Shown piece after piece: positions 13,794 through 61,160 of a stretch of DNA of 64,000 bases. Below the pieces are notes generated by a model that saw only the letters and a list, made by a program, of their open reading frames with translations, made no database searches and was not told where the DNA came from. Positions within the stretch are counted from its first letter, which is position 1. Each line of letters starts with the position of its first letter. The position numbers and the translations under genes are program-made. Source of the stretch: Desulfomonile tiedjei DSM 6799 (GTDB taxonomy: Bacteria; Desulfobacterota; Desulfomonilia; Desulfomonilales; Desulfomonilaceae); the NCBI RefSeq assembly GCF_000266945.1, contig NC_018025.1, forward strand, positions 3,538,001 through 3,602,000, written 5' to 3'.

Positions 13794-14078
13794 GAAGATT
13801 ATGCATACAGACTCGAATACCGGCAATCCGATCTTCTTTTGGTTCTTCGGCAGTCTCATAGGGAATATTGAGAGATCTCTCTTTGGCCGGTCCCGCCAAA
13901 TCTCCTTCGCTACGAACGGCACGCCCCTACTTCGCTTCGGAGACATGCCGGGACCGGATTTGCTCCCGCCGGTGGGGGGGATTACTTCTTTGAACGCACA
14001 TTCGTATCAGTCACATGCAAAATCGTTCATTTCATCAATGACTTATCGTTGGGTATTTTTACTTTTCTCGAAAAAACT

Positions 14079-24086: not shown

Positions 24087-24664
24087 GGTGGATCTCCTTT
24101 TCACAAGGCCGGAAAAGCCTCTCACACATAAACGATCGGAGAAAGAATCATTCTCCTCTTACCACGATATCTTGCAGTACGTGCAGGGGTCAAGGTAATT
24201 CCATAAGCCGGCAAAATCACAGAGTCGAACCTTACTCAAGGCAGTCTTCCTACGGATTGGTGATTACATGTCCCTCCAAATTCTTCCACATCATCATCGG
24301 TATATTTGATTTGACATATCGGTCTTCCCTTGGTATAGATATTTATGACTTCTTATCACTTGACAGGAGTTCATCCGTGTACCGTTCTTTCGGCTTTACC
24401 TGAAGTAGCTCGAATCAAGCGACCCGTGTTTGGTTGGCTCTGAGCTAGGCCGAAAGACTCCCGTCCCCTGCCGCTTTCCCAAATATCAATCGAGGACCTC
24501 TTTCAGGCAAGCTCATCGACCTTCTTGATACTGATCGGCAAGCAAAGAAGTAGATCTGGGAGACTCTTTTGAAAGAAACGTTTCCTGAAATCCTTCCGAG
24601 ACCTTGTAGAATTCCTCTGAATCGCCGTTCTTGCGATGCAAAACCGATGATTCAGAAGAAATGT

Positions 24665-24720
24665 TAAAAGTTTTTGGAAGGGTTTGGGGAACCTTTTTAC
24701 AAAAAGGTTCCCCAGCTCTT
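24665..24720. terminator. Family D hairpin, terminator-like, upstream of the tRNA
   Basis: GGGGAACCTTTTT..AAAAAGGTTCCCC forms a near-perfect stem. The sequence before it (GTTAAAAGTTTTTGGAAGGG) matches the flanks of other family D copies. The rest of 24087-24664 has no gene I can support; an open frame on the minus strand (24513-24932) spans the tRNA and is rejected. Confidence 0.6.
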
Positions 24721-24733
24721 ACTCCTTTCTTAC

Positions 24734-24825
24734 GGGGGCAATGGTGCTGGGCGCCCCGCGGGCTGCAAACCCGTTGGCCCGGTCTCGTAAACCGGGAGGA
24801 GGTTCGATTCCCCTTGCCCCCTCCA
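24734..24825 (+). tRNA. Unusual 8/4 tRNA, long variable arm, anticodon GCA (Cys-like, mimics tRNA-Sec)
   Basis: A 92-base cloverleaf can be drawn by hand. The 8-bp acceptor pairs GGGGGCAA (24734-24741) with TTGCCCCC (24814-24821); discriminator is T24822 and CCA is encoded. The D stem is GGTGC/GCGCC with a tiny TGG loop. The anticodon stem is GCGGG/CCCGT with loop CTGCAAA, giving anticodon GCA at 24765-24767. The variable arm is a 6-bp stem CCCGGT/ACCGGG. The T arm is only 4 bp (GG-A-GG/CCCC with a bulged A24800) around loop TTCGATT. The long variable arm, long acceptor and position about 105 bases before selB imitate selC, but GCA plus U73 are cysteine identity elements. A modified 8/4 tRNA-Cys with one bulge has, from memory, been described as a tRNA-Sec mimic in deltaproteobacteria. 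Canonical selC needs UCA. Confidence 0.8.
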
Positions 24826-31958: not shown

Positions 31959-32011
31959 AATGAAAGGAATTCATATAGCGAACAATCTTCATATATGTAG
32001 CCATAATATTG

Positions 32012-32085
32012 AGAGTTTTTGGGGAGGGGTCCGGGGAACCCTTTTTTGCAAAAAAGGGTTCCCCGGAAATTCTTCCCAATAATCG
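32012..32085. terminator. Family D hairpin, strong terminator-like stem
   Basis: CCGGGGAACCCTTTTTT-GC-AAAAAAGGGTTCCCCGG is an almost perfect long stem at ~32029-32067, flanked by GAGAGTTTTTGGGGAGGGG and AAATTCTTCCC. It lies just downstream of the minus-strand glycosyltransferase and would terminate transcription from either side. Confidence 0.7.
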
Positions 32086-32095
32086 CTATATTGGG

Positions 32096-33316
32096 CTACA
32101 GGGATGAAAACAGCGCATCGAATTCTTCTGCTGTGGAATCCCAACTCACACCGGACTTGACGAGAAAATCATGGCCGGCTGCTCCCATACGTGCCCGCAA
32201 GTCCGGGTCGGAGACAAGACGGATGAGGCACTTCCGCAGTTCTTCCACATCACCGGGTTCCACCAGGAAGGCAGTCTCCCCTTCCCTCACCATGTCAGGT
32301 ATTCCGCCGATGCGAGTGGAAATCACCGGGAGCCCCGAAGCCATTGCCTCGTTCACCACATTCGGGCGTCCTTCCATGTAACTGGGCAAGCACAATAAAT
32401 CCGTGTGGCGCATCAACCTTGCCACTGCTTCAGGAGGGAGTAATCCTCTCCACTCCGTGTTGTCGGCAAGTCCGAGCCGCTTGGACAAAGCTTTTAGCAC
32501 CTCCAGGTCAGGGCCGTCTCCCACAATCGTGAGGTGAGCTTTCTCAAGCTCCGGGTCCGCAAGCGCATCCAGCAAATCGTGAAGTCCTTTTCGAGCAATC
32601 AGGCTGCCGACGAATAGTATCCGGACATGTTCCCGTATTCGTCTCGGTTCCGATGGCGGATGGAACATCTCCACATCCACCCCGAACCGCGGCACGCGAC
32701 ATTTTTCGCGGTCGATCCCGAGATCGAGCATGATGTCTCTTAGTTCGCGGCTGACGGGAACGATCAGAGATGCCCTTTTGGTGACGAATTTCGTGAGTTT
32801 GCGCCAGATGTAGCGATCACGTGCCAGGTACCCGTCATCGCCTCTGAAGGAAATAACCAGCGGCTTTCGCGTCAACATGCCTGCGACCGCACCGACAATT
32901 CCCGCGCCAAGCCAATTCGCATAGATAAGATCCATGTGACGGGCTTCCGATATGGCTTTCAGGAGAAATACCAGCATCATCGGAAAGACCTGCAACTTCG
33001 CGAGGAAACTCTTTGCCATGTTTTCGGGAATACCACCCGCACCGATCGTTAGCCTTTCCAGGAATCTCGGGAAAAAATAGCCGAAACGCACAGTTTCAAT
33101 GCCGCTCAAGAAACGCCTGCCGTAAAACTGCCCGTTTGACGGAGCAACCACTCGAAGCTCGTACCCGCGGCGCTTCAGTGCACCCAACAATTTGGCAATG
33201 AAGATTCCTGAAGGATCTTTTTCATCAGATGGATACGAAGTCGTGAGAACCAGAACCTTGGGTTTTCGCTGCCTCTTTTCGGGCTTACGATGCGTGGATT
33301 GTTTGGGTTTCTTCAC
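32096..33316 (-). CDS. Family 4 glycosyltransferase
   Basis: A 406-residue GT-B glycosyltransferase with a basic, Lys/Arg-rich N terminus followed by VLVLTTSYPSDEKDPSGIF. The C-terminal nucleotide-binding domain has ILFVGSLIARKGLHDLLDA, VGDGPDL and the EX7E motif region LCLPSYMEGRPNVVNEAMASG with both Glu residues present. It probably elongates a lipid-linked or surface glycan from an activated sugar. It is transcribed with the SAM hydrolase gene upstream (43 bases apart), which seems functionally unrelated. Confidence 0.9.
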   Translation of the reverse strand: MKKPKQSTHRKPEKRQRKPKVLVLTTSYPSDEKDPSGIFIAKLLGALKRRGYELRVVAPSNGQFYGRRFLSGIETVRFGYFFPRFLERLTIGAGGIPENMAKSFLAKLQVFPMMLVFLLKAISEARHMDLIYANWLGAGIVGAVAGMLTRKPLVISFRGDDGYLARDRYIWRKLTKFVTKRASLIVPVSRELRDIMLDLGIDREKCRVPRFGVDVEMFHPPSEPRRIREHVRILFVGSLIARKGLHDLLDALADPELEKAHLTIVGDGPDLEVLKALSKRLGLADNTEWRGLLPPEAVARLMRHTDLLCLPSYMEGRPNVVNEAMASGLPVISTRIGGIPDMVREGETAFLVEPGDVEELRKCLIRLVSDPDLRARMGAAGHDFLVKSGVSWDSTAEEFDALFSSL

Positions 33317-34169: not shown

Positions 34170-34248
34170 ACTTGATTAAGTCTTGGCATCAAGAGAACAG
34201 TGCTTCACAATTCCTCTCGGTATCCCTCGTACGAGCAAGGGACAAACA

Positions 34249-35034
34249 ATGCTGAAAGACGGGATTACGGATTTCATCCAAACGCTTTCGGATCTAGTCT
34301 TTCCTCCTGCCTGCCATTTCTGCGATTCTCCGGAGGTTGAGTCGGGCTTTGAGATCTGCGCGGATTGTGCGGAATCCATCACCCGCATAGAGCCGCCGAT
34401 TTGTGCCCAATGCGGCCTGCCGCTGGCTCACAATACCACACATGAGATGCTGTTTTGCGGAACATGTCTAACAGATCCGCCTGCGTACGGAACGGCCCGT
34501 TTTGGCACAGCTTATGAAGGCGATTTGAGGCAAGCTCTCAAGAATTTCAAGTACAACGGTCAATTACGTCTTTCATCGGCTCTTGGACAACTCTTGTCGG
34601 AAGCCTTCTTCCGATATTACGATCCCGCTCAATTCGACGTCATAGTGCCGGTTCCGATTCACCGCAAGAAATTACTGGAACGGGGATTCAATCAGGCGGT
34701 AATACTCGCTCGAAAACTTTCGAAGAATACCGGGATTCCGCTCGATAGAAATAGTTTCAAGAAGATCCGCGATACACCTGCGCAAGCCCGGCTCTCCAAG
34801 AAGGAAAGGCAGCGTAACCTGAAGGGTTCTTTTCAAGTTTCTCGCCTGAATGCTATAAAGGATAAACGTATTTTGCTCGTGGACGATGTCGCAACCACCG
34901 GTTCAACCATCACAGAGGCTTCACGGACACTACACAAGGCGGGAGCCGCACAGGTAAGCGTTCTCGTCCTCGCTCTTACGCTTCCCGGCAAAAGCGAGCC
35001 GGAGGGGAGTACCAATGCGCATTCAAAGAGATAA
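34249..35034 (+). CDS. comF: ComF family phosphoribosyltransferase-like protein
   Basis: A ~261-residue protein. The N-terminal double zinc ribbon has CHFC..CADC and CAQCG..CGTC pairs. The type I phosphoribosyltransferase domain follows with VPVPIHRKKLLERGFNQA and the PRPP loop LLVDDVATTGSTI. ComF proteins assist DNA uptake in competent bacteria, and many anaerobes retain one without obvious competence. AAGGGA precedes the chosen ATG, and the 22 residues from 34183 are ignored. It is followed by the three-hairpin structure that probably terminates transcription. Confidence 0.9.
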   Translation: MLKDGITDFIQTLSDLVFPPACHFCDSPEVESGFEICADCAESITRIEPPICAQCGLPLAHNTTHEMLFCGTCLTDPPAYGTARFGTAYEGDLRQALKNFKYNGQLRLSSALGQLLSEAFFRYYDPAQFDVIVPVPIHRKKLLERGFNQAVILARKLSKNTGIPLDRNSFKKIRDTPAQARLSKKERQRNLKGSFQVSRLNAIKDKRILLVDDVATTGSTITEASRTLHKAGAAQVSVLVLALTLPGKSEPEGSTNAHSKR

Positions 35035-35035
35035 G

Positions 35036-35205
35036 ATCTGGGAAACCCTTCTTGTAAGAAGTGTTTCCCAGACCCTTCCCAAGAACTTTTAATATTCGCC
35101 TAACACCAGAGTTTTTCTAACGAAAAACTCTGGTGTTAGGCGAGTGCTAAAAGTTTTTTGGAGGGTTCGGGGACCTTTTTTACAAAAAGGTCCCCGGATA
35201 TTACT
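35036..35205. repeat. Three-hairpin composite repeat with a 21-bp perfect central palindrome
   Basis: The left hairpin is GGGAAACCCTTCTT..AAGAAGTGTTTCCC. The central palindrome has perfect 21-bp arms at 35097-35117 and 35122-35142 with a 4-base loop (TAAC). The right hairpin is GGGGACCTTTTTT..AAAAAGGTCCCC. Imperfectly mirrored linkers (AACTTTTAATATT and GTGCTAAAAGTT) join them. A similar arrangement with a different central palindrome occurs at 61020-61160. Confidence 0.85.
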
Positions 35206-35276
35206 GCTTTGAAAGCGAATCCGAAACAAGGGACTGCAGGCTCGCTGCGGTCATGTTTTAGCCGAAAGGAGAAGCA

Positions 35277-36734: not shown

Positions 36735-36830
36735 GAGAAATCGGGGAGGAACTTCTTGTAATCCCGCTTGGCGGGACTCCCAACCCACCTCAAGAACTTT
36801 CAATATTCGCCCAAAAGCCTGGGAGGGAGT
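36735..36830. repeat. Degenerate family D element with CCCGCTTGGCGGG hairpin
   Basis: GAGGAACTTCTTGTAATCCC, the linker AAGAACTTTCAATATTCGCCC and GGGAGGGAG repeat the layout of 35036-35205 with worn stems. The rest of the gap (36831-37185) contains short hairpins (GGCCGGCGATTCATCGCCGG) but no gene I trust; the 63-codon frame at 36958 is repeat-derived. Confidence 0.55.
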
Positions 36831-37185
36831 CTTGGGGAGATATGCGCTAACTTGGCGTGGTTTTGGTCGTTTGTTCCGGAGGAACAGCCGACAATAGGCC
36901 GGCGATTCATCGCCGGTTAAGGAAAAACCTAATGATTTTCGAGTCCCGGAGCGACGATTGATACACAAATTCCCGGCAATGAATTACCGGGCTATTTTCT
37001 TTAGTCCCTCTGGGACAAAGAATTACAGCAAAGTCAAGATCGACCTTCGGAAGATTAACGTTGGGGGCATTCAGAGTGGGATGGCAAAAGCTCGAGTCGT
37101 CGTCTTAAACGAAGATGTGGCAGAATGGTTTGAGGAGTCATCATGGTGAGTTAACGAAGACTCCTCACACCTTACTCGCGAAGCA

Positions 37186-40871: not shown

Positions 40872-41629
40872 GAATTCCGGGGACACCATACTTAATTAGT
40901 GCACAGAATGTAGTCTGTGGTATAGTGAAGCATGGCCAGACTAGCTCGATTGGTAGGTCCTGGTGTTCCTCACCATATAACGCAACGTGGTAATCGCCGA
41001 CAAAGGACTTTCTTCTGTGATGAGGACTATCTGGTTTATCTGGAAATTATGGCTGACTGGTGTTCCCGTTTCGACGTGGAAGTATGGACCTATTGTCTGA
41101 TGCCGAACCACGTTCACTTGATTGCAGTACCGAGTTCAGAAGATGGATTGCGCCGCGCTATTGGCGAAGCTCATCGAAGATATTCCCGGCGAATCAACTT
41201 TCGTGAGGGGTGGCGAGGGCATTTGTGGCAGGGTCGGTTTGCCTCATATCCCATGGATGAAAGGTATCTCCTTGCTGCAGCCAGATATGTCGAACTGAAT
41301 CCTGTGCGGGCTGGTCTCGTGCAGTCACCCGGAATCTATCCCTGGAGCAGTGCGGCTGCTCATCTGACGGGCCGGGACGACATATTGGTGAAGGTAGCAC
41401 CTCTGATCGAGCTTGTGGAAGACTGGGTAAAATTTCTTGCCGAAGCATGTTCGGATACCGAGGCAGAGGCGCTTCGTCGTCACGAGCGCACCGGTAGGCC
41501 TCTGGGCAATGATGACTTTCTCTCGAGACTCGAGCTTGCCCTGGATAGATCCGTCCGACCACGAAAACCTGGCCCGAAAGGGTTCAAGAAGAAAGGCTCC
41601 GGGAATTAAGTATGGTGTCCGGGGAATTG
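40872..41629 (+). mobile_element. RAYT unit bounded by inverted REP sequences
   Basis: Left boundary 40872-40897 (GAATTCCGGGGACACCATAC, then TTAATT) and right boundary 41604-41629 (AATTAAGTATGGTGTCC, then GGGGAATTG) are near-perfect inverted copies; the right one includes the stop codon of the transposase. Additional CCGGAATTCC repeats lie at 40845-40885 and 41622-41655. Confidence 0.75.
40932..41609 (+). CDS. REP-associated tyrosine transposase (RAYT, Y1 family)
   Basis: A 225-residue HUH/Y1 transposase. The metal-binding HUH motif is MPNHVHLI (residues ~56-63), and the catalytic Tyr is in AARYVELNPVRAGLV (~residue 118). The N-terminal MARLARLVGPGVPHHITQRGNRRQ is typical of RAYTs, which are usually domesticated single-copy genes that mobilise or maintain REP hairpins. 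Inverted REP sequences bracket it. A truncated duplicate of its 5' end is found 1.4 kb downstream. It appears intact. Confidence 0.92.
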   Translation: MARLARLVGPGVPHHITQRGNRRQRTFFCDEDYLVYLEIMADWCSRFDVEVWTYCLMPNHVHLIAVPSSEDGLRRAIGEAHRRYSRRINFREGWRGHLWQGRFASYPMDERYLLAAARYVELNPVRAGLVQSPGIYPWSSAAAHLTGRDDILVKVAPLIELVEDWVKFLAEACSDTEAEALRRHERTGRPLGNDDFLSRLELALDRSVRPRKPGPKGFKKKGSGN

Positions 41630-58817: not shown

Positions 58818-61021
58818 TGAGGCAGCCCCTTTCACCCGATGAGGAACAAAAGAAAAGGCGCAGAGAACTCTATGTTGCACTGTTCGCAGCCGTACTTGTG
58901 GGAGCGATTTTTCTTGCGGAATCGTACCTGGTCAGGTCCGCGGAAGACATACCGTTTGCGGGACATCTGCTGCTCTTTGGGCTGCTTTCGATTGTAACTC
59001 TTCTTCTCATCGTTATCATTTTCTTTCTTATTCGTAATCTGTTCAAACTTGTTTTCGAACGGCGTCGACGGGTTCTGGGATCTCATCTCAAAACTCGGCT
59101 CACTTCGGCATTTGTAGCATTGACCCTGGTCCCTACGGTGGTGCTCTTCATTGCGAGTGCAGGGGTACTCCACACCACCATTGAAAGCTGGTTCAAAGCT
59201 CAGGTGGAAGAGTCTCTTCAATCGTCGCTGGTTGTAGCGCAGGCGTTCTACCAGACTGCCTCGGAGAAGGTCCTGAATACCGGTGCCCGCCTTGCAGCAT
59301 TCATTCATGACAATGATTTGTTGAATCCGAGTGAACGAACGAGACTGGTCAAAGCAATGGATGCCTGGAGAGCAGCGGAAGGTATCAGCTCCATTCAACT
59401 CTATTTCAGTGACGGCGCAAATCCGGAACTCCTCAAAGATCCGGCACTGAAGGATATTCCCATTCCCCCACCTGTGCCGAGCTTTCTGAAGATTGCTTTT
59501 CAGGGCGATGCAACATCCAAGATTATGCCGCTGGAGGGCGGGAGCGATCTCATACAGGGATTGGCACCGATTAAAGAAACCAACGGGGAGCGTGTCTCTG
59601 CAGTCCTCGTCATAGATTATTTCATCCCCAATTCATTGGCGGGCAGGCTGTTTTCCATTTCCAGCGCATTCGGAGACTATCAGGAAGCAAAACGTATGAA
59701 AGGTCCGGTGAAGACCATGTACGTGCTGATCCTGCTCATGGTTGCTCTCCTGGCTATTTTCATCGGATTTTGGTTCGGTGCGACCATGGCCCGGGACATA
59801 ACCGAGCCGATCCAGAGGCTCGCTGAAGGAACCCAGAAGATTGCGCAAGGGGACCTGAACGTACACATAGATCCCACTGCGGACGATGAACTCGGGATTC
59901 TCGTGCGATCCTTCAATAAAATGACGGATGATTTACGCGAAAATCGGGACGAACTGGTCCGGGTCAACACGGACCTGGAAAGCCGCCGAAAATATACCGA
60001 AACGGTGCTGAAAAACATAGCAGCGGGGGTTGTTTCGCTGGATTCCGCAGCCCGAATCACCACAGCAAACAATTCTGCCCGGCGACTTCTCGGAATTGCC
60101 GCACGCGATATTCTCAACAAGCCGTGCGCAGACGTACTCCCCGAAGAATCTGCAGCGGCCATCACCAGCATACTCGAAGATGTTGCCGATTCCGATTCGG
60201 AAGCATTGGAGCGACAGATCACGCTGTCTTTTCCGGAGCGAGTGACTTCTCTGCTCTGTTTCGCGAACAAACTCAGGGACGAGGAGGGCAATAATCTTGG
60301 ATTCGTTCTGGTCTTCGAGGATATGACCTATCTGGTGAAGGCCCAGAGAATGGCTGCCTGGAGAGAGGTGGCTCGTCGTATTGCTCACGAGATCAAGAAC
60401 CCCCTGACCCCCATTCAACTCAATGCTCAGCGGCTTCGACGAAAATATATGCCGGTGCTTGCGGAAGATGGCGCAATTCTGGACCAGTGTACGGACGCTA
60501 TTATCGATCAGGTGGAACAGTTGAAACACATGGTCAACGAGTTCTCCCAATTCGCGCGCATGCCCGCAGCCAACCCGGTTCCAAATGATCTGAACGCAAT
60601 GATCTCTGAAGTGGTTAATCTTTATTATCAGGCGAACGATCAGGTGAACATTGTGTTCAAACCCGATCAATCAGTTCCGATTTTCAACCTGGATAAAGAA
60701 CAGATGAAACGCGCTGTGATGAATCTCCTGGACAATGCCGTTTCTGCAATAGAAAAAAAAGGAATCGTAAAAATAATGACAAGCTACGACAAAGATCTTG
60801 CCATTGCATCCGTAGAAGTTGCGGATAACGGAGCCGGAGTAAATCCACACGATCGGGATAGGCTGTTTGAACCATACTTTTCCAGAAGACCTGGAGGAAC
60901 GGGTCTCGGATTGACCATCGTCAGCACCATCGTCTCGGACCATAACGGATTCATAAGGGTCAAAGACAATCCCGGAGGAGGTGCTCGGTTTATTCTGGAA
61001 CTACCGGTCCGGAAGACGTGA
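58817..61021 (+). CDS. NtrY-like membrane sensor histidine kinase
   Basis: A 734-residue kinase. Three transmembrane segments are near residues 15-37, 48-73 and 94-116; an extracytoplasmic region runs to ~295; a fourth membrane segment is at 296-320; then HAMP, one PAS (~395-500), the H-box WREVARRIAHEIKNPLTPIQL and ATPase motifs DNGAGV, LFEPYFSRRPGGTGLGL. The architecture matches NtrY. The partner NtrX-type regulator is not in the window. It overlaps the metallopeptidase stop by one base. Confidence 0.92.
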   Translation: MRQPLSPDEEQKKRRRELYVALFAAVLVGAIFLAESYLVRSAEDIPFAGHLLLFGLLSIVTLLLIVIIFFLIRNLFKLVFERRRRVLGSHLKTRLTSAFVALTLVPTVVLFIASAGVLHTTIESWFKAQVEESLQSSLVVAQAFYQTASEKVLNTGARLAAFIHDNDLLNPSERTRLVKAMDAWRAAEGISSIQLYFSDGANPELLKDPALKDIPIPPPVPSFLKIAFQGDATSKIMPLEGGSDLIQGLAPIKETNGERVSAVLVIDYFIPNSLAGRLFSISSAFGDYQEAKRMKGPVKTMYVLILLMVALLAIFIGFWFGATMARDITEPIQRLAEGTQKIAQGDLNVHIDPTADDELGILVRSFNKMTDDLRENRDELVRVNTDLESRRKYTETVLKNIAAGVVSLDSAARITTANNSARRLLGIAARDILNKPCADVLPEESAAAITSILEDVADSDSEALERQITLSFPERVTSLLCFANKLRDEEGNNLGFVLVFEDMTYLVKAQRMAAWREVARRIAHEIKNPLTPIQLNAQRLRRKYMPVLAEDGAILDQCTDAIIDQVEQLKHMVNEFSQFARMPAANPVPNDLNAMISEVVNLYYQANDQVNIVFKPDQSVPIFNLDKEQMKRAVMNLLDNAVSAIEKKGIVKIMTSYDKDLAIASVEVADNGAGVNPHDRDRLFEPYFSRRPGGTGLGLTIVSTIVSDHNGFIRVKDNPGGGARFILELPVRKT

Positions 61022-61160
61022 AGAGTTTCCGGGGAACCCTTTTTTGCAAAAAAGTGTTCCCCGGACCCCTCCCCAAAAGCTCTTAATGTTATCCGGAACC
61101 TCAATTTCCTTGCAGGAAATTGAGGTTCCGGCAAGCGTTGGAAGTTCTTGAGATGGAGAT
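61020..61160. repeat. Three-hairpin composite repeat with a different central palindrome
   Basis: First hairpin CCGGGGAACCCTTTTTT..AAAAAAGTGTTCCCCGG; then the linker CCCAAAAGCTCTTAATG; then a central palindrome CCGGAACCTCAATTTCC..GGAAATTGAGGTTCCGG (61096-61136). It follows the kinase stop immediately and probably terminates it. Confidence 0.8.

Follow-up and report, generated by a model that had tools for sequence, protein, structure and literature searches.

The three-hairpin sequence that we analysed in Desulfomonile is a non-autonomous DNA transposon, or MITE, and belongs to a family in which the arms of a central palindrome differ from copy to copy while staying complementary within each. 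We think it probable that the middles of these arms drift in paired form through replication template switching, a process that sometimes also inverts the loop or the whole centre. In the Desulfomonile genome studied the family numbers at least a hundred related miniature transposons, the copies being counted among the matches listed. The papers searched hold no account of these repeats, and within them the family is previously undescribed, an element of known kind in an unusual variant. The window referred to below is the whole 64,000-nucleotide stretch of DNA analysed, positions 3538001-3602000 of a 6,500,104-base contig in a genome of 6.53 Mb and two contigs (G000).

The sequence-only reading had described a composite of three hairpins at 35036-35205. 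The composite is indeed present, its predicted fold lies far beyond chance (z = -14.3 against dinucleotide shuffles), and it is part of a longer unit, since alignment of the genomic copies and the position of the TIR ends extend it to 35010-35225 on the + strand, a complete copy of 216 bp that belongs to subfamily A1. The same alignment gives the order of the parts, all on the + strand: the left TIR (35010-35036, by TIR comparison); hairpin H1 (35037-35072), conserved in sequence and with a conserved mismatch inside its stem; a left linker (35073-35096); the central palindrome (35097-35142); a right linker (35143-35167), with which the left linker pairs imperfectly; the sequence-conserved hairpin H3 (35168-35196); and the right TIR (35197-35225). 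The TIRs are about 25 bp long, with a TACCRATKCGCWWTCAAAGNAGYAA-like sequence, and the left one overlaps the end of a comF-like ORF (34183-35034), to which it supplies the last codons and the stop (35032-35034). In this copy the central palindrome is perfect, with 21-bp arms (35097-35117 and 35122-35142) around a TAAC loop (35118-35121); among copies its base and tip are conserved and its middle is hypervariable.

The similarity of the flanking parts, on which the idea of a family depends, is significant genome-wide. The sequence at 35036-35205 has at least 39 further matches in G000, 40 of the 151 candidates having been scored. The TIR pattern has 245 matches in G000 and 596 in a genome of the same genus (G001), far above a control with the pattern reversed (2 and 0). 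Fifty-two TIR pairs in G001 have TNA on both sides, and the triplet is identical in 39 of these 52, where a quarter would be expected (p = 5.6e-14); no four-base target duplication was seen among the G001 TIR pairs. The target duplication is the 3-bp TNA, which is eroded at the window copy. At the orthologous position in G001 the gap between comF and hpaB measures 81 bases, compared with 278 in the window, and holds no element, and there is a converse site at which G001 carries a copy where the window has none. It is because of the abundance of the TIRs, the TNA duplication and the element-free orthologous comF-hpaB site in a relative that we regard these sequences as a MITE family: they are short and bounded by TIRs, they have duplicated targets, and they occur in many copies with element-free sites in relatives. 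They also lack a transposase gene of their own, the forms of 90-220 bp being too small for a gene. When a degenerate TIR pattern was run over 257 Gb of genomes, possibly excluding the window's own, only three assemblies matched, two titled Desulfomonile tiedjei and one deltaproteobacterial MAG. Genome G006 shows the same architecture, in one case accompanied by a clear TAA duplication.

The copies fall into size classes of about 90, 220, 338 and 404 bp. The form of about 90 bp consists of a single hairpin between two TIRs, the form of about 216-222 bp has two conserved hairpins around the long central palindrome, and the 338- and 404-bp copies are 220-bp elements in which the loop of an outer hairpin contains a further element. 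The size table of the TIR-pair collection made at 6 mismatches was left unused because that collection includes false pairs. The same TIRs are also found around different, GC-rich hairpin interiors of about 120-190 bp, both at L165-L172 in G000 and at 13845-14006 in the window (- strand; TIR at 13982-14006, far end uncertain), and the TIR superfamily is therefore broader than the three-hairpin element. Some copies in G000 (L014, L024, L028, L029, L030 and L048) are flanked outside their TIRs by unique inverted repeats, and the TNA triplets beside these copies tend to be inverted, not direct. Counts of such palindromic flanks gave 5 of 29 for the copies in G000, with a null of 0.6%, and 1 of 23 for those in G001, and in view of the latter figure we reject the targeting of hairpin loops as a general rule. 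It may be that the elements inserted in the loops of hairpins, or that the flanks were afterwards copied from arm to arm, two histories that are indistinguishable here.

Transposition itself would presumably be effected in trans by a transposase encoded elsewhere. No autonomous partner with matching TIRs was found among the PF13359, PF01609, PF07592 and PF01797 loci. The DDE transposases PF13359, PF01609 and PF07592 were rejected as the source, their loci being without matching TIRs, although the PF07592 search gave no match in any control genome and cannot demonstrate absence. Two IS families are abundant in the genome, and the ends of both are unrelated to the TIRs of the element; the plasmid collection searched with the element gave no match. 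One copy in G001, bounded by TIRs and 1366 bp long (L253, 405-1770), carries a 334-aa ORF inserted in the H3 hairpin, for which there was no Pfam match at E<=1. Other mobile elements lie in repeats: a 1514-bp IS4-like element (466 aa, about 14 near-identical copies; L136-L156, G000) lies repeatedly within one GC-rich palindromic repeat, with duplications of about 11 bp, and in one case (L152) inside a family B-type hairpin element, and a 1681-bp IS (490 aa, about 18 copies; L158-L164, G000) lies repeatedly in another dispersed repeat of the TAGCCACGGGTG type.

The window itself holds several relatives. The element at 61020, which the sequence-only reading had set beside that at 35036, has a homologous hairpin and linkers; it is a right-truncated relative (61028-61160, + strand, by sequence comparison) with an A2-type centre at 61095-61131, and in its hairpin (61028-61065) and its left linker it agrees with family B. 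Partial copies had also been proposed at 24665, 32012, 22045 and 36735. The last of these is the truncated left half of a relative (36735-36840, + strand), in which a CCCGC/GCGGG hairpin replaces the upper part of the hairpin. Position 24665 is actually the right end of a decayed full-length copy (24510-24735, + strand) with a central palindrome that is now imperfect, and 32012 belongs to family B, a separate repeat of about 107 bp (31994-32100, - strand) with the hairpin-plus-linker module in common; 22045 fitted no hairpin pattern that was applied and was left out of the copy count. The CCCGC/GCGGG hairpin takes the place of the upper H1 both at 36745-36785 in the window and in copy L023 of G000, as if the upper H1 had been exchanged for another small palindrome. 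Directly downstream of the decayed copy lies a tRNA-Sec (24734-24821), which is conserved in G001, but the sequence upstream of the tRNA differs there.

The principal peculiarity of the family is its central palindrome. When the central arms were compared within and between genomic copies they proved to be largely paired within a copy and much less so when re-paired, complementarity in G000 being 94.1% within copies and 53.7% (sd 2.6) with arms re-paired among copies. Thirty of 35 gapless copies in G000 have distinct left arms, and all four Watson-Crick pairs occur at arm positions 8-12. The mean pairwise difference in that genome is about 0.59 in the arm middle, compared with 0.07 in H1, 0.09 in H3 and 0.11 in the T5 tip; the TIR values of this comparison were unused owing to poor alignment at the edges. 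In both subfamilies the variable paired middle is framed by conserved tips (TTTTTC or ATTTCC) and bases (GYCTAA or CGGAA), subfamily A2, to which the 61020 centre belongs, having the CGGAA base and the ATTTCC tip. The arms are hypervariable, with each copy paired, but the claim that the centres differ completely between copies is overstated, as many intermediate forms are found at this one position and the centres make up a graded series with fixed base and tip; to that extent they do match one another, as a single fast-evolving series. Given the shared place, the shared plan and the graded series, and not direct identity, the 35036 and 61020 centres would seem to occupy one homologous position.

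A templated inversion process had been suggested for such a family, and it finds support in centres inverted in place in G001 and in loop inversion combined with arm homogenisation in G000. Subfamily A2 in G001 has about 32 copies, and five of them (L186, L238, L248, L249 and L084) show an in-place inversion of the centre, which is about 42 bp long. These figures exclude three A1 entries and count copies with common ancestry, not independent inversion events; the flanks are unchanged, the linkers and hairpins on either side keep their orientation, and the centres of the other 27 or so copies lie in one orientation. The centre of L186 is an exact reverse complement, matching the reversed consensus at 42 of 42 positions, and among A1 copies in G001 the centre is found in both orientations. 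In G000, copy L015 departs from its subfamily in that its loop is inverted and its left arm has bases matching the right arm; in L019 it is H1 that is reversed in place. The inverted A2 centres come from a metagenome assembly, and the G000 cases from a two-contig genome.

The interior of the element keeps its sequence apart from the middle of the central arms. There, in the model that we favour, template switching during replication at the hairpin would carry a change in one arm over to its partner. Such copying would keep the arms complementary while their sequence drifts, and would occasionally flip the loop or the whole centre between unaltered flanks. Compensatory change together with loop inversion has been regarded as the strongest support for template switching (PMC8794818), which has been described as leaving homogenised arms and an inverted spacer (PMC8604942); arm homogenisation with loop or spacer inversion is found in these elements too. 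Our preference rests on the fit of the arm covariation, the in-place inversions and the L015 pattern to this published footprint. The published cases resemble ours in showing arm homogenisation and inversion of the loop or spacer in short hairpins, but they concern rRNA genes and yeast coding genes (PMC8794818; PMC8604942), whereas here we have a multi-copy mobile element, the whole centre of which, some 42 bp, is inverted. There are also observations that count against template switching: almost every copy retains the mismatch in the H1 stem, and there are fixed mispairs between the linkers, so that homogenisation is not general, and a conserved tip and base around a variable middle is not predicted by template switching alone.

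The main rival is selection for structure, in which a DNA hairpin or cruciform recognised by a transposase or a host protein would keep the arms paired; tip and base would be read by sequence, the middle would need only to pair, and compensatory changes would arise in two steps. This would account for the constancy of tip and base, seen in both subfamilies, on either side of a middle that varies but stays paired, and for the strong sequence conservation of the neighbouring hairpins. Taken alone, however, it does not predict centres inverted in place, or inverted loops along with homogenised arms, and the decayed copy with an imperfect centre persists, though it is possibly dead. As the sole account we consider such selection possible and rather doubtful; template switching is the probable one, if by no means certain, and both may act.

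Selection of the structure as RNA, with the element transcribed as a small RNA, attenuator or terminator, is very unlikely. The predicted fold is very stable and many copies lie near gene ends, but among the arm pairs that are not Watson-Crick, in samples that are small and related, G.T is not favoured over A.C on either strand (14 against 11 in G000, 9 against 12 in G001), which argues against selection on an RNA; there is, moreover, no Rfam match for the element and no run of T directly after the hairpins. Neighbouring genes in G001 are not biased to convergent pairs, and with gene orientation around the G001 copies unbiased we reject a terminator role.

The element also invites comparison with REPINs and RAYT-associated REPs (PMC3116915), being composed of two inverted palindromic units, here around a variable centre, and occurring extragenically in hundreds of copies per genome. 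RAYT-type genes are present in the genome, one of them in the window (40932-41609), but no hairpins or linkers of the element lie near any Y1 transposase locus of the genome, the window gene is flanked by its own, different repeats, and RAYT systems do not feature TIRs with a 3-bp TNA duplication of the target; with no link to the RAYT genes, a REP pair moved by RAYT seems to us highly improbable. The window gene encodes a RAYT-like Y1 transposase (Pfam Y1_Tnp) that falls below the NCBIfam cut-off for REP-associated tyrosine transposase, and its flanking repeats, which are ACACCATACTTAATTA and GGAATTCC palindromes, do not belong to the MITE family. Least credible is the idea that unrelated hairpin elements have inserted into a shared outer one. 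Nested insertion does occur in the outer hairpin loops of the 338- and 404-bp copies, and might be read into the module common to the 61020 element and family B, but it fails for the variable centre of the 216-bp form because all centres have the same place, architecture and linkers and a shared base and tip in a graded series, with no duplication seen around the centre.

Among known elements the closest in kind are prokaryotic MITEs such as Chunjie of Geobacter uraniireducens (178-235 bp) and QMITE2 of Coxiella burnetii (PMC10969869), which the Desulfomonile element resembles in being under 500 bp, with TIRs and a target duplication, in its mostly intergenic position, and in its stable stem-loop fold and many partial copies. 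Unlike them, it has its own TIR sequence and the TNA duplication, and two conserved hairpins around a hypervariable centre with complementary arms that is sometimes inverted in place.

The copies define a MITE family in the Desulfomonile group by their TIRs, target duplication and size classes. The question at stake is whether perfect hairpins of changing sequence come about by selected compensation in two steps or by template switching in one. Within one genus there are hundreds of TIR-bearing elements, with conserved sequence flanking a covarying, invertible palindrome, and these form a natural record with many replicates that is able to separate the two-step from the one-step route without invoking RNA function. 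More speculatively, and in our judgement improbably, the arm middle could be a self-templated hypervariable segment, the shape of the element driving repeated rewriting of both arms; the conserved tip would then prime fold-back copying, the conserved base would let the polymerase return, and the rewriting would possibly be error-prone. If that were true, this mobile element would be using its own palindrome to diversify its core.
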